Assembly (NCBI GenBank): GCA_947561715.1
Contig: OX387200.1
Coordinates: forward strand, 10,728,501-10,792,500
From: Ascidia mentula
Taxonomy: Eukaryota; Chordata; Ascidiacea; Phlebobranchia; Ascidiidae
Length of the DNA: 64,000 nucleotides
Reading direction: 5' to 3'
A program made the translations under genes and the position numbers. The notes under the pieces were generated by a model that was given only the letters and a program-made list of their open reading frames with translations, was not told the DNA's origin and did not search any database. This document shows, in pieces, positions 4,182 to 63,680 of this stretch. Each line of letters starts with the position of its first letter. Positions within the stretch are counted from its first letter, which is position 1.

Positions 4182-4219
4182 TATATAATGGCACGACAAG
4201 GCTTAGCTCTCGGTCAGAC
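4182..4219 (+). promoter_or_regulatory. TATA box and initiator-like site of the PTH-like gene
   Basis: TATATAA at 4182-4188 lies 34 nt before the A (4216) of an initiator-like TCAGACT (4214-4220), the usual TATA-to-start spacing. This would give a 5' leader of about 140 nt before the ATG at 4360. An AG at 4351-4352, 7 nt before the ATG, is an alternative leader boundary if the transcript is trans-spliced. Confidence 0.4.
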
Positions 4220-4359: not shown

Positions 4360-5055
4360 ATGATGAATGTTACGCAACTAATGTTCGTTCTTCTGGGAGC
4401 ACTTAGCACAATTGGCGGAATTCTGTCACGAGCTATTCCGTCGGAAGATGAAAACTACGAGAACAGAATAAGGTAAGCAAGCTATGAACTTTTACAAATA
4501 AGACAAGCGAATAATATAAAATCTGGTTCAGTTGAAACCACGAACGTTAAATAAAACCTTTCTTTCTTTTGCAGCAAACGAGCTGTCGCCGATAAAATTA
4601 TTCAGCACAAAATGGCCGAACGTTACCACAACCGCAATCGCAGGGTGCTAATCACCAAAATCCTGGAGACAATTGGCAGTGGATCACAAATGGCGAGCTT
4701 CCCTGAAACAAAACCATCGGCAACAACGTTCACTCCTTCGGAAACTTCGGGCAGTTCAAGCCGGGGTTCAGGGGAGCAGCGCTCCCGTGGCAAGAAGCGC
4801 AAGAACAAAAAGCGAAACCGAACGCGCGACAAGCGAAAGCGAAGAAATAAGAACAAGAGAAACCGAAATCGCCGTCATCTCGTTAACGCCATTGCAGCCT
4901 TGCTAAATAGTGAAGATGGAGAGAGGATCATCGACACAATTGCAGGAGTTGTCGCTCCTGGCCAGGCGGCCGACATTGAGAAGGCCAGAAAAATCATCAA
5001 GGAAACGGCTGATAAATGTGAGTGTCAATTTATCAAGGGACAGAACAACAACTAA
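4360..5055 (+). CDS. PTH/PTHrP-like secreted preprohormone (two exons)
   Basis: Predicted small secreted peptide hormone of 197 residues. Exon 1 is 4360-4472 and exon 2 is 4575-5055; the intron is GT-AG and splits the serine codon just before the Lys-Arg cleavage site. Residues 1-24 look like a signal peptide (MFVLLGALSTIGGIL core), residues 25-38 a short acidic pro-segment, then KR at 39-40. The mature chain starts AVADKIIQHK and runs to NRRVLITKILETIG. Aligned without gaps to human PTHrP it shares A1, V2, H9, R20, R21 and I31, with conservative matches at 4, 7, 24, 27 and 28. R20 and V2 are hallmark residues of the PTH family. A Ser/Thr/Pro linker follows, then a very basic stretch (mature residues about 63-94, KKRKNKK, KRKRRNKNKR) placed like the PTHrP nuclear-localisation region, and a C-terminal tail ending near CECQF. 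In vertebrate PTH and PTHLH, as I recall, an intron also lies just before the KR codons. A fast-evolving basic secreted protein of another family remains possible. Confidence 0.72.
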
Positions 5056-8000
5056 CAATGATACATTCGACCATAAACTGCTCTAACAGCATGTATATCG
5101 AAACAAGGAAGCAGTGTCCAGCATGGGGACAACTTCCGTTTGGCTGAAGCCAAATGCATGTGCTTGGTATCGTTTAAACTCTGCCACGTTGTTAGGAGGT
5201 GGCTATTTTTTATTACTGCGTATTTTGCATGTATACACATTAGCATTGTCCATGTGCATTTCTAGGCCACAGGTAAACGACTGTGGCTCACAGACTTCAA
5301 CAAAGCTTGCTTTGAGAAAACTTTTTCACCTTTATTTGGGACCAACTTTGACCCGATCGCTACAAGTTGGTCGCCTTGATAGTTTTAGATGTAGCTTCTT
5401 TTGACTGCATGTACTGAGTGCCCGCATTATTATTGATATTGACTGCGCTTATACTGCATAACCGCATCATTATGTGCTTTTCGAACAAGTATCGCTCATT
5501 CGAGAGATACTGTTTTTTTATTGGTATAATCTTACCACATTTCTTACTGATCTTTTTTGCATGTTTTCAGCTGATCTAATGTGGTAAATAGCTTATGCTG
5601 TTAATTTATTGGTTCCCACTGACCGATTTAGACTACTTCGCAAATCGGAAACTTGAGACATTGATGCCTTAGACTTGCCATTTTTAATCAACTTAATTTC
5701 AATAATTTACTTGTCAAAATAAATACTATTGAGGCAAACATACAAATGCGGTAGTTCGGCATTAGATTGAGAAGTTGCCTTTTCGAAAACTTCCATTAAC
5801 TTTCGACCACGCGAGTTTCGAGATGCGAATCAACATCATTATCAGCCTTAAAATCTTGTCACATCTCTCGAAATTCATCACTGTGGTCTTGTCAAATAAC
5901 CTCTGCCCTTTGGTGGTGAAAATAGTGTGTTTTTGTAGAGATATGGCCCTAATGTCAATATCATCACCGAACCAAGGTGTCGCTGACCAAAACCGGACAT
6001 ATCATTTTTGGGGAAACTTAAATGGCATCGAATTTCTCACCACATTTGTAGCCGAAGTTTTGTGTTATTTTTTTCGCCAAACCGCATTTCTCAATTTAGA
6101 CGACATTTCGGCATGGAATTGCATGACGGGTGTGTGCATGTTAGTAGAGTAACTTTATTTGTGACTTTTGCACAAGTGTAAATAATTTAATTTATAAGAA
6201 GGGATTTATTTCCCACTTAACAAAAACGACGATTTCATCACGAAATCCGCGTATATCGTGTACAGCATGCTTTTAATAAAACATTTGTGTGAGTAGTCAG
6301 CCAGCAAGTGTTACAAAGTAAACGTCGTTTTTGACCAACAATTTTCTACACAGGAACGAATGTTGAAATTGAAACTCAACTCCCAGTTCTCTTGGAAAGG
6401 AGGGACGAAACGCTGTAGAAGCTTGCTTATTCGTAATAAATATTCTCTCAATGAAGATGAAAAAAAAACATAAGTAAAACTGCAGGATATGTAGTGTCAC
6501 TGCAATTTTATTGAAATCATCATAAGGAAAGTCAACTGCCAACTTATAAAACAACTCCATTTTATCGCAACACATTGCGATCAACTTCGGTAAAAACAAT
6601 TGTGAAATCCTTATATTTAGTGTGGAGGAGTTAAAAACTTTTGCTTGAACTTTTTACACTTATTTTTGCTACTTTCTATTATTTTTATTTTTCATACACT
6701 TTTATTTATTCGCTTATTTAAATATATGTAACTGCACGCTTATAGCACCAGTCACTTGCAACTAAACCATGAAGTATACGATGTACGCCCACACATGGTG
6801 GCAACTAGTTTTCTAAAACACCATTACACACAAAACTACGAACAATTGTGTAAAATCATCACTGATTTTTGTTGTGCGTTCTTTCTGGCTGTACACTATC
6901 TTTTTCGGTTTTTATTTCAATTTTCACTGTTGTTTTTATTGCATTTGAAAAAAATAAAGATACATTCCGATCAAATTACCTCAAATTGCAAATATTCAGA
7001 AATGACAGTTCGGTACGAAGCGCACAATTTAATGTTCAGCTTCCCGCAAAGAAACTTAGATTAATTGTTTGCTTGCAATGACACTGGAACAGTTCCATAT
7101 AAATGAATACAGTTGTACTTTGTTAAATTATCTGCTCAGAAAATAATACTGTTTTAGGTTTTTTAACAGCAAAAATATTAATCAGAAAAATACTATTTTA
7201 TTTAATTACATCCAAATTAATTAATTTTTTTATTTTAGCAAGAACCGCCAATGTCATCTCCAATGATATGTACAGAATTCATGGCAGAAAAATTGTTAAC
7301 ACGGGGTTTCAATTCCTTTTTTTTAACCAAGAAAAGTAAAATGGAGTACGCCACAGACAAATGTCTCGGCGGCAAAAAAATATGAAGATTGTCATCAATA
7401 CCAAGACGGTATCGCCTCTGTGGGAGTGTGACGTGTTCTCGCTCCGTGCTACAATCAGTCGCTTGTTTGATGCACCGACATCTGCTTCAATATCTCATGT
7501 GCATTCCTTTTGAGTACGTATACACAATCAACAAACATCAGTCATTCAGATGTTCCCAGAAATATGTTGGTTAGCCCTAACCTTGCACTTCATTTTCCGT
7601 ATGGTGACGAGGAATTTCCTATTGATCCAATCTAAAACTTTTGTTATTTTTTTTTTATAAATTTATGAAGTTTTTGCTTTTCTTAAATGAAACTGATTTT
7701 TGTTGTAATCTAATCTTTTCAATTTCCATCTTATCGTTTTTATGGAAAAATGTGGGAAGTAATTAAACTTTCTCCTAAATTTACTGATGTGTTATAAATT
7801 TAGAAACCTAAATCTCTGTGGATGAAATTTAGCCTGCAAGTGTCTGAGGAATGAAGAGGTAATTATTTCAAGAGAAACAAGATATCTTCTTGTAAAAGCC
7901 GTGCAGCTCATGCTGTGATCTTTTAATAACACTAGAAATGTTCGCGTGCGCCTGGAACGATGAACGGCCATCATTGGCCGCGTGGAATTAATTGTCACCG

Positions 8001-11942: not shown

Positions 11943-14900
11943 ATGGATTGTCCTGGAATTGAGGGAACAGAACCACCATTACCAGATGCTGGGTTGGATG
12001 CTGCGGATTATGGAGTAATAGCAGCTTACTTTGTTTGCATCCTACTAGTTGGAATATGGGTACATTTTACGTTTATTACGGTAAACGACCCTTGTTTTGG
12101 ACCATGTATTACGTACGTAAATTTTTAAGGCAATGTGCAAGACGAACCGATCAAACGTCAGTGGATTTTTTCTTGCTGGTCGCGACATAACTTGGTTTCC
12201 CGTTGGAGCATCGCTTTTCAGCAGTAATATTGGAAGTGGACACTTTGTTGGCTTGGCTGGAAGTGGCGCAGCGTCTGGAATAGCACAGGGAACGTTTGAA
12301 TGGAACGTAAGTGTCATAAAAGCAATAAATATTTTACCTTTTTTTTAAAGCATTAATTTAACTTTGCATACTTTAAATATTTCTTGATGATAAAATTCTT
12401 GCGTGTTATACATTCCTTGACAGGCTGTCCTGACCCTTCTTCTGTTGGGTTGGATATTTGCTCCCATATATATTGCATCCGGAGTAGTTACAATGCCAGA
12501 ATATCTAAGAGAACGATTTGGAGGACAAAGAATTCGAACTTTTCTTTCTGTTCTTTCTCTAATCCTCTACGTTTTTACCAAAATTTCGGTAAGATTTTCT
12601 CCGAGTGTAGTTGGGCTGTTAGACAATGTAAAATAACGCTTTTGTTTTAGGCTGATTTGTTTGCCGGAGCTATTTTCATAGAAACTGCCCTTGGCCTAAA
12701 CATATATTTAGCTATTGTGATTTTGCTTTCAATCACGGCATTGTATACTGTGACGGGTGGATTGGCTGCAGTCATCTACACAGACACCGTTCAAACCGTT
12801 ATCATGCTCATTGGGGGACTGGTGATGATGGGACTCGGTAAAACCATATTTCTTATTTTTGCGGTTGCGTACCACTTGGAGGTAAAACAATTTCGACGCG
12901 TACCACCTAGTTGAGTATTATACCTAGGGTATGAAGTAACAAATATTTTGAGATCACTTACGATTTTTTTAAATTCGAACTATATCCGCAAATTACAGAA
13001 AGGTGTTCGCGTACCGCCTGGAATGCCGTCGCGTACCACTGGTTGGGAAACACTGTTAAAGAGTGATAAAATATCAACAATATAACAACAAAAACATTTA
13101 TATATAACAACTTTATATGTCACAAAAATTTCATGGCGACGAAATTATAAAACCAAATACCAGGTACTAATATCCTCTAAAAAGTTTTTGAAATTTGAAA
13201 ATTATCATTTTTTAATAAAAATGTCAACAGATTGAACAGTTTATCTTTATAGTGGGAATAACAATAATATTGTTTTAGCCTTTAACCAAATTGGAGGTTA
13301 TGATCAACTGGAATGTAAGTACATGAACGCGATTCCTGATGAGCGACCTCCAAATACGACATGTGGTTTGCCAAGACCGGATTCTTTCCATGTGTTTCGG
13401 GATCCTATTGATAGCGACATGCCATGGCCAGGAATGCTCTTCGGTATCAGTATAATTGCCACCTGGTATTGGTGCACTGATCAGGTAGATAATGTATGAA
13501 AGCACTGAACTTACATGGACGTTGCTCCTATATAGGAAGCCAACACTATAAGATATTATTTTAAAAGTCAAAACCAAATGTTTTGTGTGACTAAACAAAG
13601 TTACTTCGAGATCCTATTGTAAGTTTATTTGGTGTAGTTTGAAAATTCAGAAACAAGAATGTAGCGTAGATTTGGAGAACTTTTATCGACACCTTTAGGT
13701 AATCGTTCAAAGAACTCTGGCTGCAAAAAACCTTTCTCATGCCAAAGGTGGATGCGTTATGGCTGGATTGCTTAAAGTTTTGCCTATGTACATGATGGTT
13801 ATGGTTGGAATGATCAGTCGCATTGTTTTTCCCAGTAAGCTTCCTCATAGTCGATTTAATTCAATGTTGTCAACACTCCATACGTTTCTGCAGACAGTAT
13901 CGGTTGCGCAACTCCTGAAGTTTGCAAGGCAGCTTGCGGAGTTTCTGTGGGATGTACAAACTACGCGTACGCCAAACTTGTTTTGCAAATCATGCCAACT
14001 GGTCTTAAAGGTAAGAACGAGGCAAAATTTGTTTTTAAAACACTTCCTAAATATGAATCATGCCATACTGTACTGCTTTGGAATTAGTGTTTTTGCTTTT
14101 CACCAATAGACGAGTTGTAGACCATTTTTCACCTCATATGTTGCTTTTGTCGACCCTAACTGTACCAAACTTTATTGTTGCAAAAACGTATTATTGTTTT
14201 TAGGTCTTTTGCTGGCAGTAATGATCGCAGCCCTAATGTCCTCGCTCACATCAGTTTTCAACAGCGCAAGTACTTTGTTTACATGCGATATTTGGGCCAA
14301 ACTACGGCCAAAAGCCGGCAACAAAGAACTGATGATAGTTGGCCGGTAAATAAATTTGGATCCGTTTTATACAATATGCAAAATTATGATGTTTTACAAC
14401 AGAGTTTTCATTCTTGTCATGGTTGGGGTAAGTGTGGCTTGGGTTCCGATTATTCAGGCATTTGCCGATGGAAAGTTGTTTGACTACATTCAGTCAATTA
14501 CAAGTTTCTTGGCACCTCCAATTACTGCAGTGTTTGTAATGTCTGTATTTTGGGACAGACTAAATGAACCGGTGGGTAAAAATAGGCTATTGTAGTTTTA
14601 GACTAAAATACTTTCGCCTGTTTGATGCTGCTTTACCGCGTTAAAGGTGTATGACGTTACACTATTCTTAAACAGGGAACCTTCTGGGGACTTGTTCTTG
14701 GCTTAATTATCGGTCTGGTTCGAATGATTTTCGAGTTTGCAGCAGGGGCCCCAGCCTGTGGAAAACCAGAGTTCAGACCAACCATCCTTTTCAAAGTTCA
14801 CTATCTTTACTTTGCCATGATCCTGTTTGCATTAACCATCGTTATATCAGTGTCGGTTTCACTGGTCACTCCACCAATTGACCCAAGATGTGTAAGATGT

Positions 14901-16119: not shown

Positions 16120-45779
<29,660 letters not shown>

Positions 45780-52332: not shown

Positions 52333-54725
52333 ATGAATGAAAGTAAGGTTACTACGGGGGGGAATTTTGTATCTTCCGAAAAGATTGAACTAAATGATCA
52401 ACACACAGTTTTGATTACTGGTGGAGCAGGATATCTTGGTTCACGTCTTTGCGGCCTGCTGCTAGAATGTGGCTACAAGGTAAAGAACAATTTATGTAAT
52501 TGTTTTGTACTTGTATGTAAATTCAATTATCATGAATCTGCCAAAGTAAGAGTAATTGTTTAATAAAACTCTGCAAGTTTTAATCTTTACTTCTGTGGAT
52601 ACAATGAGGAAAACAAAAAAAGTTTATACAACAAAGCATCTTTGATATTTTTTGCAGGTACTTTGAGTTTGAGATACTAGCAGCACATTTTATCCACCAT
52701 GATTTATTTTTATATAGATAGTTCTTACAATGAGAAACTTTGACCACTTGTATGGTATATACCATGCTTTGTAGCCCACCTGAAAAAACTTCTTGGCCCA
52801 CTGGTTTGGGAGAAGTGGTGTTTAATAAACAACTTAAATAAACCCCTATTTTGGATGTTAGTTTTAGCTTTGAGTAAGTGGGTTCACTGTTGTTTACAAA
52901 TACTGTTGGCCAAATTTTCTGCAATGGAACTGGTTGATTTTTAATTAAAACTTGTTTTATTTAAAGGTTCTTATTTATGATTGCTTCCTATGGGGAATAA
53001 CTCCCATACTTCCATTTTTGGGGCATCCAAATATTTCTGTCATTAAAGGCGATGTTTGTGATGAAGACCAACTAAAAACGATTCTACCACACTGTGATAC
53101 AGTAGTACATCTGGCAGCTGTTGTTGGGTATCCTGCATGTGCTAAAGACCCAGAACTTGCAATAGAGGCAATCAGTTTGCTAATATACGCATGTTATAAT
53201 TGTATTAAATATTTACTCTTACATTTATGTAATGAAGAGTATAACTTGATATATGGATTACATGATATTCTCTTAAACACGTTTGCTATTATTTAGTAAA
53301 ACTATGATTGCTCATAGTTACACATAGTTTGGCTTGCTGTTTTCTCAGCTGTTTATCTTGTTTCATAATTTTTTTCTGGTTTAATATTAATTTTACCATT
53401 ATGAAAAATGTCCATATTACTTGATTCAACATCTCCTAAAAAGCTTGACACTTCGTATGCCTAACACTAAATGCGGTTTGTCACTTACATAGGTGAATGA
53501 GTGTGCAACGAAAAAAATTATACAAAACTTGAAACCCTGGCAACAAATCATCTTTGCTTCCACTGGATCCTGCTATGGGTCTGTCAAGGGAATTTGCACA
53601 GAAGAAACACCTTTGGTTCCATTAAGCTTGTATGGCAAAACCAAAGCAGAGTCAGAAAAATTTGTTTTAGGATTTGGTGGTGTTGCATTACGCATGGCAA
53701 CACTCTTTGGAGTTTCTTTCCGAATGCGTCTTGACTTGCTTGTTAACGACCTTACTTACCAGGTAGCAACCAACAAAATCAAATTTGCCTGAACTTCAAA
53801 TCTTGCTGTTGTTTGTAGGCAATCGCAAAGGGGGAATTGAACCTGTATCAGGGTTGGTTTCGACGAACGTTTTTGCACGTTAAGGACGCTGCCCGTGCGT
53901 TTCTTTTTGCAATTAAGCACTACAAGATGATGAAGGGACAAGCGTACAACGTTGGCTGTAATGAACTCAACTTGACCAAGCGAGAAGTTGTTTTGAAAAT
54001 TCAACAAAAGGTAAAGCTCGTGTATTGAGGTTTGGCATTTTTATTGCAGAAACGATTACCCCTTATGGAAATTTATGGCAAAAACCTCGGTAGGAAAAGG
54101 AGATTATCAGAGATTTTTTAAATCATTCTTGCTAGGTTTTTGACGAAACTACGCTGGCCATATGGTATTGCCATCAGGGAATCAAGGACCAGGAAGTTCT
54201 TTCCTTCATTATACAAAAAAGTAGCAAATACAGTTGACAACCAAACGGGCATCACCCATTTTTTTTTTCTAATACCAAATTACCAAGCCTGATTTGTAAA
54301 TACGTTGTCCAACGCAGAAATAAATTTTGACGGTGATATAAATCCGTATTATAACAGTAAGTTGGTTTAGTCCAAAAACTTTTCGAAGCGTTTTCGCACC
54401 TGTCACATATCAGTAGCGTTTATTAAGACCGTGTTACATGCAAGAAACAAACCTACACTTTGATTTGTTGGGGGTCATCGTACAGTTGCACTACAATGCT
54501 GATGTACAACTGATTAACAAGTAGTTTATGCAGATTCCACAATTCACTTTCACCGAGGAACAAACAGACGAGGATATGGACAAGCGTGATTACGAAGTTT
54601 CCTATTGCAAGTTACGCAAACTTGGATTTCGCGCACACGAGACGATTGACAGCGGAATCGAAGAACTTGTAAAAATCCTTCCCCTCTTTTCGGAAGCTGA
54701 TGTTCGAAACAGTAAAAATGTGTAG
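52333..54725 (+). CDS. NAD-dependent epimerase/dehydratase (extended SDR)
   Basis: Predicted cytosolic nucleotide-sugar epimerase or dehydratase of the extended short-chain dehydrogenase family. Exons 52333-52479, 52967-53167, 53493-53762, 53819-54010 and 54534-54725 give 333 residues. The Rossmann motif is [11 protein letters not shown] (about residues 36-46), with acidic D after VLIY favouring [18 protein letters not shown] and the catalytic set FASTGSCYG plus YGKTK follow. Then come [21 protein letters not shown] and [14 protein letters not shown], a substrate-domain pattern I associate with bacterial and algal NAD-dependent epimerases rather than animal GALE. All four introns are phase 0, and intron 2 appears to use a GC donor (GAG/GCAATC). 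The start was chosen as the first ATG after an AG acceptor at 52317-52318. The exact substrate is unknown. Confidence 0.85.
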
Positions 54726-60700: not shown

Positions 60701-63680
60701 CTGATCCTAGTAAAAAAAAAATTTTCTGATATTGAGACAAAGAACTCAATTTCCAACGCTACCTGAAAAGAGTTTTCCAATAAAAGATCTTCTACGGACT
60801 ATTTGCCTGCGTGGAACCTGAAAAAAATATTATGAATATAAATATGTATAAATTAATATAAAGTTGAACGAAGCACGTTTGTAGGTTAGAACCACTTACC
60901 TGGTGCTCAGTCACAATTTGTTTTCCATGTTTTGCAAGTAAATATGTTTGATGTTTCTCTCTGTGTGTGTTTAACACAACTGTGGTCAGTGATCCAACTG
61001 TTTTGTGTGACGTCTGCAAACAGATAACAACATAAAACAGCCATTGGTAATTTGTTAGTTTTAACAGGCATTTACAGTGAGAAGCAGATCAACGTCATCT
61101 ACTTGTGATGGAATATCAGATAATGTGTTGAAAATTTCAGCAGAATTATCCAAGATGCTTAACTTGTCCTCCTGAAAACATATTTTTTTACTGTCTATTT
61201 TTAATTAGATGCACCATACATAACATCCATGTACACATAATTTACCTTTAACTTCAACATTCCAATTGCGATTTTAAACATTACAATTGACCCATCCATG
61301 AAAAAATGATCCCAGACACGAAGAAGAATTTTTGTATGAAGTACACCGGCAAATATTGTGATGAACCAATGTAAACTTATCAGCGAAAGTTCTGTCAATA
61401 AACAATGAAACCTTATTGTTACAGCCCTTTTTTTCAAAAAAACAAGTTTACCAATATCATGCTCTTGCATAAGTTTGTCCACTGCTGGAAGAAATTGCAC
61501 AATAATCTGACGTAAAACTCTTTGGTCGGCATGCACCCCAAACAAACTAGTTCCAAAATATGACAGTGGCAACAGATCTTCAATTATTGCACACATCATC
61601 CAGAAAACATCTTCCTCTTCCATAAACAGAAGAAGGTGGGAGGCGATCTGATAACAAGACAAAATACAATCAATAAATACTGTGGAAGAAGTAACAAGTT
61701 ATAAAAATCATACCATTCCAGTTCCTTGACAATAGCCATTGTCCGGATAAAGCCAGGCAATGTTTTGCAAAACTCTCCTTAATCTAGAAAAACATTTATT
61801 TACAATTTAATCTTTGTTTTTTCCCCAAATAATTCATCTGTATTATTAGACCAAATTTGTTTCACACCTCAAGTGAGCAAAGTTTTTGCCTGATTTTGTT
61901 TAAAATCTCTAATACGGCGACTTGGACATGTCTTGAGCAAAGGCACAAGCACTTATGGTACCACTAGCAAATTAGAAATGGTGATCATACTGTAAATGGG
62001 ATAAATTTGTGTCCACTGTTCATTTACTAATGTTGTAAGGCTATTTCCACCATGATTTAACACTTTTTGTAGTTATTTAACGCGCTAACTTGTAAAAATG
62101 CCCACTGCTACTAAATATATTATTCAATATTGCAGATCTTGATTCAGCAATTTGTAAAATGCATTTTTCACAACAAACCTGGGAATTCCTGGACTGTTGA
62201 TGTTTGAAAAACAAGCATTGCTTGGTATTGTACGAAGCAAATCTTTTTCAATTGCTTTGGAAATGGCACTGTGAGTGGAACTGGAACTTGCTGTAGTCAT
62301 TTCCTCATATGAAATTTTGCTGCTTAGCTTTTTCTGCATTGCTCCTGATAACCGCATCCAAATCTAAAAAGTATTATTAATTTTTTAACAATGTTTAAAG
62401 GGTTAAGTAAACTATGGAACTATTAATGCAGTCCATGCAAAATAATAAAAAGGAACAGAAAAGGAAAACCTGTGCCCGCATACTGTGTGGAATTCCACAT
62501 CTAACCAGTTGATTCAACTTGTCAGAACGTGGAAGTGTTGAACCAATTTTATCCCAAGTCATATCTTCTACCTTGAAACAAAAAAATTTCTTATAGTTTG
62601 AAACATCAACATAATAAATATTATATCTATAAGCCAATGAGTCATTAGATTAGTGAGCTGCAAATGTTATCATCTGTGCATTTGCTGTAACTTTTATTCT
62701 TTTAAAGTCAGTATTCTTTTAGGTTCTATGAAGATGGAAGACCAAACTTCCTAAAATGTTTAACTTGTCACAAAACCCCATCCATACCTCTAATCACTGT
62801 TTACATCATAATTATGATAGACACCCAGAAATATTGTACACTGTACTACCATCACTATAGTAATCACATGTGTAGAATGAGCGCTTATAACCTAAACAAA
62901 CAGGTGTTCACAACAACTTTACAAAAAACACTTTAATCTTGTGTTACAATATTTAACGTAACCATTTATCATTCTGCAAGCATTTTTCATCAACCCAATT
63001 GCATGATTGAGTGCAACACCATACCTTGGTGTTTAATGTAAATTCCAAGTATGCTTGCCACTGTAATTTTTTGTGATTGTTTTCTGCCCATGGCATACCC
63101 AGCACTTTGCTGCTTTCTGGTTCAGCACCATCTGTACATATCACAAAAAGAATGCTTACATGTATGCCATAAAAGAATCTTTAATACTAAAAGTTTATTT
63201 TTTGAAAAATAATAATAAATACCTTCTTCCTCGACTCGAAATCCAAACTCATCATATCTGTATTCTGGCTGATCAAAACTTTTGTCAACCTGGATGTACA
63301 GAAACACATGAAAGGGTTTGGGTCTAGTGTACGATTGTATGTATATATCTATGTTAAAAAAAATTGAGGAAACCCCAAATTATGACATGATAAAGGTAAA
63401 ATGAAGTTACGCACAATGCTTGGGGGCTTGGGGCAATATGGAAGCCCATCACATTAGGCTTAAAATATGTTGGACTGTCAATATGGTAAATGCTAATTGC
63501 AGAGCTTTATTTACAATAAAATAACTTTTAAAAAAATTAAATCTTAAACTATGTCATTCCAAAAAAAATCCTTACCTCGGGCAAGTTTTCGATAAGAGAT
63601 TTAGGTCTCATTGACTCGATGACAGCCGAAAAGGGTATTCCAAGTGATGCACATGACTGACTACTTTCCGGAAGATCCAT
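57782..63680 (-). CDS. Small G protein signaling modulator 3
   Basis: Rab GTPase-activating and trafficking/signalling adaptor with TBC, SH3 and RUN domains. It reads right to left from ATG 63680 ([10 protein letters not shown]) to TGA 57782 (KHHLFSWDL). The first exon is 63680-63576 and the second 63289-63223 ([15 protein letters not shown]). The TBC domain spans about 62570-61200: [38 protein letters not shown], the arginine-finger motif [15 protein letters not shown] and the glutamine-finger motif YCQGTGM, both catalytic residues present. Then [13 protein letters not shown], a coiled linker [15 protein letters not shown], the SH3 domain [20 protein letters not shown] plus [20 protein letters not shown] (about 60340-60090), and the RUN domain [20 protein letters not shown] to [14 protein letters not shown] (about 59165-58440). 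The domain order and motifs match human SGSM3 (about 749 residues). The gene has many short introns, and a SINE cluster lies in one RUN-side intron. Confidence 0.94.
59169..59720. mobile_element. Cluster of SINE-like repeats in SGSM3 intron
   Basis: One copy on the plus strand (about 59175-59335: ATTGACCGAAAGGTACCAC, then GCACTGATGAGACCTTACAG, ending CCTGTCTGCAG) faces a minus-strand copy (about 59590-59397) with the same modules. A partial third, minus-strand piece follows at about 59720-59640. They share modules with 46033-46200 and the tail with 34875-34945. They resemble published Ciona composite SINEs, though I cannot check that here. Confidence 0.65.

Follow-up and report, generated by a model that had tools for sequence, protein, structure and literature searches.

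The gene at positions 4360 to 5055 of the window (the whole stretch of 64,000 nucleotides that was analysed, C67:10728501-10792500 of a 196 Mb genome) is very probably a tunicate gene of the PTH/PTHrP/TIP39 family. We predict that its product is the ligand for the PTH receptor encoded in the same genome, a role for which we infer cleavage, receptor binding and signalling. The initial annotation had placed the gene in the PTH/PTHrP family, and this placement is upheld by the similarity of the peptide, by the receptor and by the tunicate host; the Pfam match and the novelty that went with it were not borne out. The features of the locus are as follows.

4182..4188, + strand: TATA-box-like sequence, possible core promoter, about 180 bases 5' of the start codon (pattern TATA[AT]A, consensus match only)
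4360..4472, + strand: exon 1, coding for the putative signal peptide (about residues 1-25) and the greater part of the pro-segment
4473..4574, + strand: intron of 102 bases, phase 2, GT-AG; opens GTAAGC, closes TTTCTTTTGCAG
4575..5055, + strand: exon 2, one base finishing Ser38, then Lys-Arg, the entire mature chain and the stop codon
4576..4581, + strand: Lys39-Arg40, putative prohormone cleavage site (AAA CGA)
4582..4683, + strand: PTH/PTHrP-like candidate receptor-binding peptide, mature residues 1-34
4786..4875, + strand: strongly basic stretch, about mature residues 69-98 (Lys or Arg at 21 of the 32 residues counted)
4876..5052, + strand: C-terminal segment, about mature residues 99-157, with a Cys-Glu-Cys motif
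5718..5723, + strand: AATAAA, possible polyadenylation signal (consensus match only)

The exon coordinates, splice sites and translation of the initial annotation were correct. It had also called the gene cleanly spliced; the splice signals and the open joined frame agree with this, and splicing itself is predicted from them. The intron (full pattern GTAAGC...TTTTGCAG, 4473-4574) ends one base 5' of the Lys-Arg codons, and the joined frame of 594 bases encodes 197 amino acids, 157 of which make up the predicted mature chain. A second in-frame ATG lies at 4363 in exon 1. Residues 1-25 resemble a signal peptide, in which hydropathy peaks at 2.25 in an 11-residue stretch starting at residue 8 and the hydrophobic core lies near residues 8-18; the call was made from hydropathy and by eye, and the cleavage site is an estimate by eye. 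The pro-segment, IPSEDENYENRIS-KR, is 15 residues long, and the mature chain begins with AVADKIIQHKMAERYHNRNRRVLITKILETI (an AVAD start). The predicted precursor has the layout that marks membership of the family: a signal peptide, a short pro-segment and a dibasic site immediately before residue 1. The C-terminal segment (4876..5052) had no relative in Pfam or the PDB.

To score mature residues 1-34 we used a matrix built from seven vertebrate PTH, PTHrP and TIP39 sequences, ungapped and anchored at the Lys-Arg site. The peptide scored 19.6 compared to a mean of -26.5 (SD 9.3) for its shuffles, and none of 200,000 shuffles reached 19.6. As a yardstick, TIP39 scored 19.4 against the other six family sequences on the same kind of matrix. 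When human PTHrP alone was the comparison, 31 of 200,000 shuffles reached the score of the peptide. Realignment confirmed the gap-free match to PTHrP in the initial annotation and the identities to the human peptide at positions 1, 2, 9, 20, 21 and 31 (6/34). Arg20 and hydrophobic residues at 24, 28 and 31 serve binding to the receptor extracellular domain in this family, and Val2 serves receptor activation; the peptide has Val2, Arg20, Ile24, Leu28 and Ile31. Residues 1-14 and 15-34 each scored above shuffles against human PTH and human PTHrP with both BLOSUM62 and BLOSUM45, with shuffle frequencies that varied by peptide and matrix from about 1 in 38 to 1 in 500 (weakest, 521 of 20,000). The similarity is therefore independent of one half of the peptide and of one matrix. 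Against TIP39 only residues 1-14 exceeded shuffles, and residues 15-34 did not (3604 and 2202 of 20,000).

The peptide also stands out from its genome. It ranked first among 126,479 open 34-mers in the genomic sequence sampled, a set in which some loci overlap and three of the rows listed are the PTH-like locus itself; the next distinct locus scored 8.8, and among the matches listed no row of another locus was preceded by a dibasic pair. We trained a fourth-order Markov model with 184,000 bases and simulated 1.14 Gb of DNA from it; the score was reached there by one of the 1,361,936 open 34-mers that follow Lys-Arg. This corresponds to a chance expectation of about 0.17 per genome of 196 Mb, before a signal peptide, splice sites or the intron position are required. 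Against the engineered agonist LA-PTH, 9 of 34 residues were identical (including Ala1, Ala3, Ala12 and Lys26) and none of 100,000 shuffles reached the score. A passage of PMC7340446 describes the LA-PTH substitutions at those positions as deliberate changes; their natural occurrence here is a curiosity and no proof.

Database and profile searches, on the other hand, missed the family or barely registered it. The Pfam Parathyroid family (PF01279), proposed in the initial annotation as a check, matched neither the full protein nor a 50-residue mature piece. Ten weak Pfam matches were obtained, all overlapping the basic stretch and none at its cut-off. PF01279 also gave no match over the whole genome, a result that says little because all control genomes were silent too. 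A seven-sequence HMMER profile gave only 2.9 bits, whereas the anchored ungapped similarity was significant. A phmmer search of the PDB (E up to 10) retrieved no PTH chain and only a MarR regulator (E 0.83 and 0.1). BLAST of the genome with human preproPTHrP missed the locus, returning one unrelated match (E 4.15), and with chicken PTHrP it found nothing. When gaps were allowed, local alignment gave high z-scores for the two chicken peptides alone (4.5 and 3.7), and human PTHrP (1.8), human PTH (1.5) and TIP39 (-0.4) aligned weakly. The case therefore rests on the anchored alignment and on context. Pairwise detectability is low even within the PTH family, since a PDB search with TIP39 misses PTH, and one with PTHrP reaches native PTH chains at no better than E of about 0.03-0.7.

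Structure prediction was of limited use. Single-sequence AlphaFold2 modelled the exon 2 product with a low-confidence helix over mature residues of about -1 to 33 (block pLDDT 54-69), and predicted the basic stretch confidently as helix (89-96); the mean pLDDT was 65.7 and the pTM 0.33. The helix supports little, because lone charged sequences often model as helix. The helical moment of residues 16-32 was uninformative, as it was for known family members.

The sole coding intron of the model, in phase 2 and one base before AAA CGA, splits the prepro part from the mature part. The mature exons of mammalian PTH and PTHLH begin exactly one base before Lys-Arg. If this position is right for vertebrates, a coincidence would have odds of roughly 1 in several hundred, to be discounted for any preference of introns for the boundary between signal and mature segments. 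Passages of PMC3009671 and PMC4354418 describe vertebrate PTH genes as having a prepro exon followed by a mature exon, and place the intron of vertebrate PTH-family genes "before the KR cleavage site", a wording in which the exact base is not given.

The initial annotation had proposed looking for PTH receptors in the same genome, and exon matches to human PTH1R revealed one clear gene (C1, about 21,500,760-21,510,750). Identities to PTH1R were 28/36 in the TM2 region, 37/51 in the TM3 region, 28/48 in the TM6 region and 16/16 in TM7. The joined receptor pieces, scored without the signal-peptide exon and the full tail, gave 386 bits against PTH1R, 364 against PTH2R and 289 against the next receptor (secretin). 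The extracellular domain retains Asp113, Trp118, Asp137 and Phe138, and several of its positions near the ligand contacts differ from human, including Ile115, Ile135 and Tyr136. The receptor also keeps Arg233 and Gln451, whose joint change produced a signalling-incompetent rat PTHR1 according to a section of PMC11144202.

For its second extracellular-domain exon this receptor gene offers two candidates of compatible phase, at about 13370-13512 and 14415-14535 in the coordinates of the joined C1 loci. Both resemble human PTH1R at about 142-190 and have splice signals that appeared usable by eye. It is possible that the two are mutually exclusive and would give two ligand-binding domains. A second PTH receptor was also sought in the genome, and one clear gene was found. 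For Ciona, passages of PMC3483286 and PMC2396169 describe two PTH receptors.

Other class B1 receptors are encoded in the genome. One at 16.6 Mb on C72 was considered as PTH-type and rejected: it scored 93.5 bits against VIPR1, 92.6 against GLP1R and 84.1 against PTH2R, and is closer to the VIP/glucagon type. The 92.6-bit chain belongs to an entry named "Uncharacterized protein" that we take to be GLP1R; the best chain so named scored 91.0. Eighty residues from a class B1 receptor gene at C72:19479281-19480137 on the - strand scored 63.5 bits against the secretin receptor, 61.4 against the GIP receptor and 60.6 against PTH2R, values that do not separate a secretin/GIP type from a PTH2 type. 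Receptor exons on C70 are presumably of calcitonin and CRF type, as judged by eye from motifs. Matches to 7tm_2 number at least 153 genome-wide (150 of the 454 candidates scored) and cluster on C2, many of those listed lying between 0.4 and 7.8 Mb, which suggests a lineage expansion of these receptors.

One alternative to a PTH-family gene is an unrelated secreted, highly basic protein, such as a matrix-binding, heparin-binding or antimicrobial one, whose N-terminus resembles PTHrP by chance. Such a protein would account for the failure of Pfam, PDB and BLAST searches to find the family and for the placement of all ten weak, sub-threshold Pfam matches in the basic stretch, and a basic protein can score too well against RR-rich peptides. 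However, the shuffles preserve composition and none of 200,000 reached the score, only 1 of 1,361,936 simulated peptides following Lys-Arg did so, and residues 1-14, which are not arginine-rich, exceeded shuffles alone. Both the intron position and a co-resident PTH receptor in need of a ligand would have to be coincidences. We consider this explanation unlikely.

To compare the peptide with other class B1 hormones we computed anchored z-scores from 2,000 shuffles per hormone. The highest values were obtained with chicken PTHrP (5.3), chicken PTH (5.2), human PTHrP (4.0) and human PTH (3.5), and human TIP39 gave 1.8. Twelve other class B1 hormones ranged from -1.4 to 2.8, and four of these unrelated hormones exceeded TIP39 (1.80): GLP2 (2.83), CGRP (2.62), GHRH (2.32) and glucagon (1.82). 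As a yardstick, TIP39 itself gave z-scores of 2.5-3.9 against the four PTH and PTHrP peptides. The anchored z-scores therefore indicate likeness to PTH and PTHrP and not to TIP39 by itself. Raw scores (human PTHrP 24 and PTH 20; chicken PTHrP 36 and PTH 32; TIP39 3) were too close to separate PTHrP from PTH. A gene from before the duplications would be co-orthologous to PTH, PTHrP and TIP39.

These comparisons also bear on the possibility that the product belongs to a different class B1 branch, of glucagon/PACAP, CRF or calcitonin type, and is the ligand for another secretin-type receptor. The exons of further class B1 receptors that lie on C70 and C72, and z-scores for GLP2, CGRP and GHRH that are modest but higher than that of human TIP39, could be read in this way; it is nevertheless very improbable, as human and chicken PTH and PTHrP are clearly higher (z 3.5-5.3) and the peptide has neither a glycine-plus-basic amidation site after residue 34 nor the His or Tyr with which glucagon-family peptides usually start. 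A chance open frame with splice-like signals and no expressed gene is scarcely credible even for a gene model known from sequence alone, given the 594-base joined frame, the strong donor and acceptor, the in-frame signal peptide, Lys-Arg site and family-like peptide, and the TATA-like and AATAAA signals.

Within the PTH family, the predicted precursor most invites comparison with vertebrate PTHrP. Shared features are Lys-Arg followed by an AV start, His9, Arg20, Arg21 and Ile31, aliphatic residues at 24, 27 and 28, and prepro and mature parts on separate exons. Both have a basic run, from mature residue 69 here and at 87-108 in human, a likeness of place and composition rather than of alignment; passages of PMC6600663 give 67-94 or 67-96 as the limits of the nuclear-localisation sequence in PTHrP. 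In contrast, Asp4 replaces Glu4, Lys5-Ile6-Ile7-Gln8 stands where PTHrP has HQLL, and the C-terminus has no evident likeness. The convertase site also differs, being Ile-Ser-Lys-Arg here and, in PTHrP, Arg-Leu-Lys-Arg, which is called highly conserved in a section of PMC6600663.

The two coding exons are a likeness to vertebrate PTH, for which the same number is given in part of PMC3009671; Val2, His9, Arg20, Lys26 and Leu28 are further ones. The differences are the absence of Trp23, the length of the mature chain and the basic stretch. The mature chain of PTH has 84 residues, whereas 157 are predicted here, and to our knowledge PTH lacks a strongly basic stretch. TIP39 shares Ala12, Arg20 and Arg21 and, under a shift of two, the Ala-x-Ala-Asp start, but its overall likeness is weak (z 1.8), no better than that of some unrelated class B1 hormones. 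Synteny was assessed with one gene, TEAD, a neighbour of vertebrate PTH genes: TEAD lies on C72 and the ligand gene on C67, so that this linkage was not found. Synteny is no strict criterion at this evolutionary distance.

PTH-like peptides of amphioxus were reportedly described by On et al. 2015. The initial annotation had presented an invertebrate member as hard to find and had known of no description of this gene. The novelty was not upheld, since a passage of PMC5640766 already reports PTH peptides and receptors in amphioxus, urochordates and vertebrates, and that article and PMC4354418 both cite the tunicate and amphioxus PTH-like peptides of Mirabeau and Joly 2013. Those peptides come from the same clade and are claimed for the same family, a likeness by description only, and our gene may be an orthologue of one already listed by Mirabeau and Joly. 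In view of the urochordate and amphioxus reports, we therefore assign it to a known family and make no claim that it is unreported. An older paper, PMC3483286, reports that its searches of invertebrates yielded no PTH-family ligand, and a beetle peptide called insect PTH exists according to part of PMC7224569. Our finding fits earlier reports that the PTH hormone family predates vertebrates.

The secretion, cleavage, binding, signalling and physiological roles of the peptide are all predictions. The preproprotein would enter the secretory pathway, where the signal peptide and the 15-residue pro-segment would be removed, and a convertase cut after Lys-Arg would release a chain starting AVAD. 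A helix of about residues 16-31 could then bind the extracellular domain of the PTH receptor via Arg20 and hydrophobic residues 23, 24, 27, 28 and 31, while residues 1-9 would enter the receptor core and lead to G-protein (cAMP) signalling. Asp4 might stand in for Glu4, as an acidic residue does in TIP39. The basic stretch may bind heparan-type sugars and so keep the peptide close to its source, or may function as it does in PTHrP (nuclear entry); both are guesses.

A broader proposal is tentative, and we think it doubtful as a whole. It holds that the ancestral chordate PTH gene was PTHrP-like, a single exon that starts one base before Lys-Arg encoding an N-terminal receptor peptide and then a long, strongly basic region with another function (tissue retention or a nuclear one); that vertebrate PTH and TIP39 are shortened derivatives; and that the single tunicate ligand acts on one receptor gene spliced with either of two extracellular exons. 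A PTHrP-like precursor in a tunicate would bear on which vertebrate hormone kept the original form. With a defined peptide and a defined receptor from a single tunicate genome, it could become possible to test what the hormone did ancestrally, in animals that have neither bone nor parathyroid glands. For specialists the value lies mainly in the PTHrP-like precursor, its intron and the ready ligand-receptor pair.

The genome carries a tunicate signature. A fused gene for cellulose synthase and GH6 is a hallmark of tunicates, and two loci with both domains were found. At C71:8043861-8047068 a GT2 cellulose-synthase domain is followed by GH6 2.4 kb away on one strand; at C52:18244911-18249069 the two lie about 3.5 kb apart and the GH6 match contains one stop. 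Both GH6 domains score only modestly, at 32.0 and 27.8 bits where the cut-off is 27. These loci suggest two tunicate cellulose synthase genes.

Several other genes lie in the window. A U6atac minor-spliceosome snRNA (88.2 bits) is found at 16334-16440 on the - strand. A dynein heavy chain gene spans about 19842-45051 on the - strand, with Pfam AAA lid, stalk and D4 domains in three exons among those scanned; its outer limits and the label "cytoplasmic" were assigned by eye. A tRNA-Thr lies within its span at 34986-35062. Exons of a sodium:solute symporter (13699-14106, + strand), an NAD-dependent epimerase (52949-53293, + strand) and a Rab-GAP TBC protein (61204-61698, - strand) were also observed.
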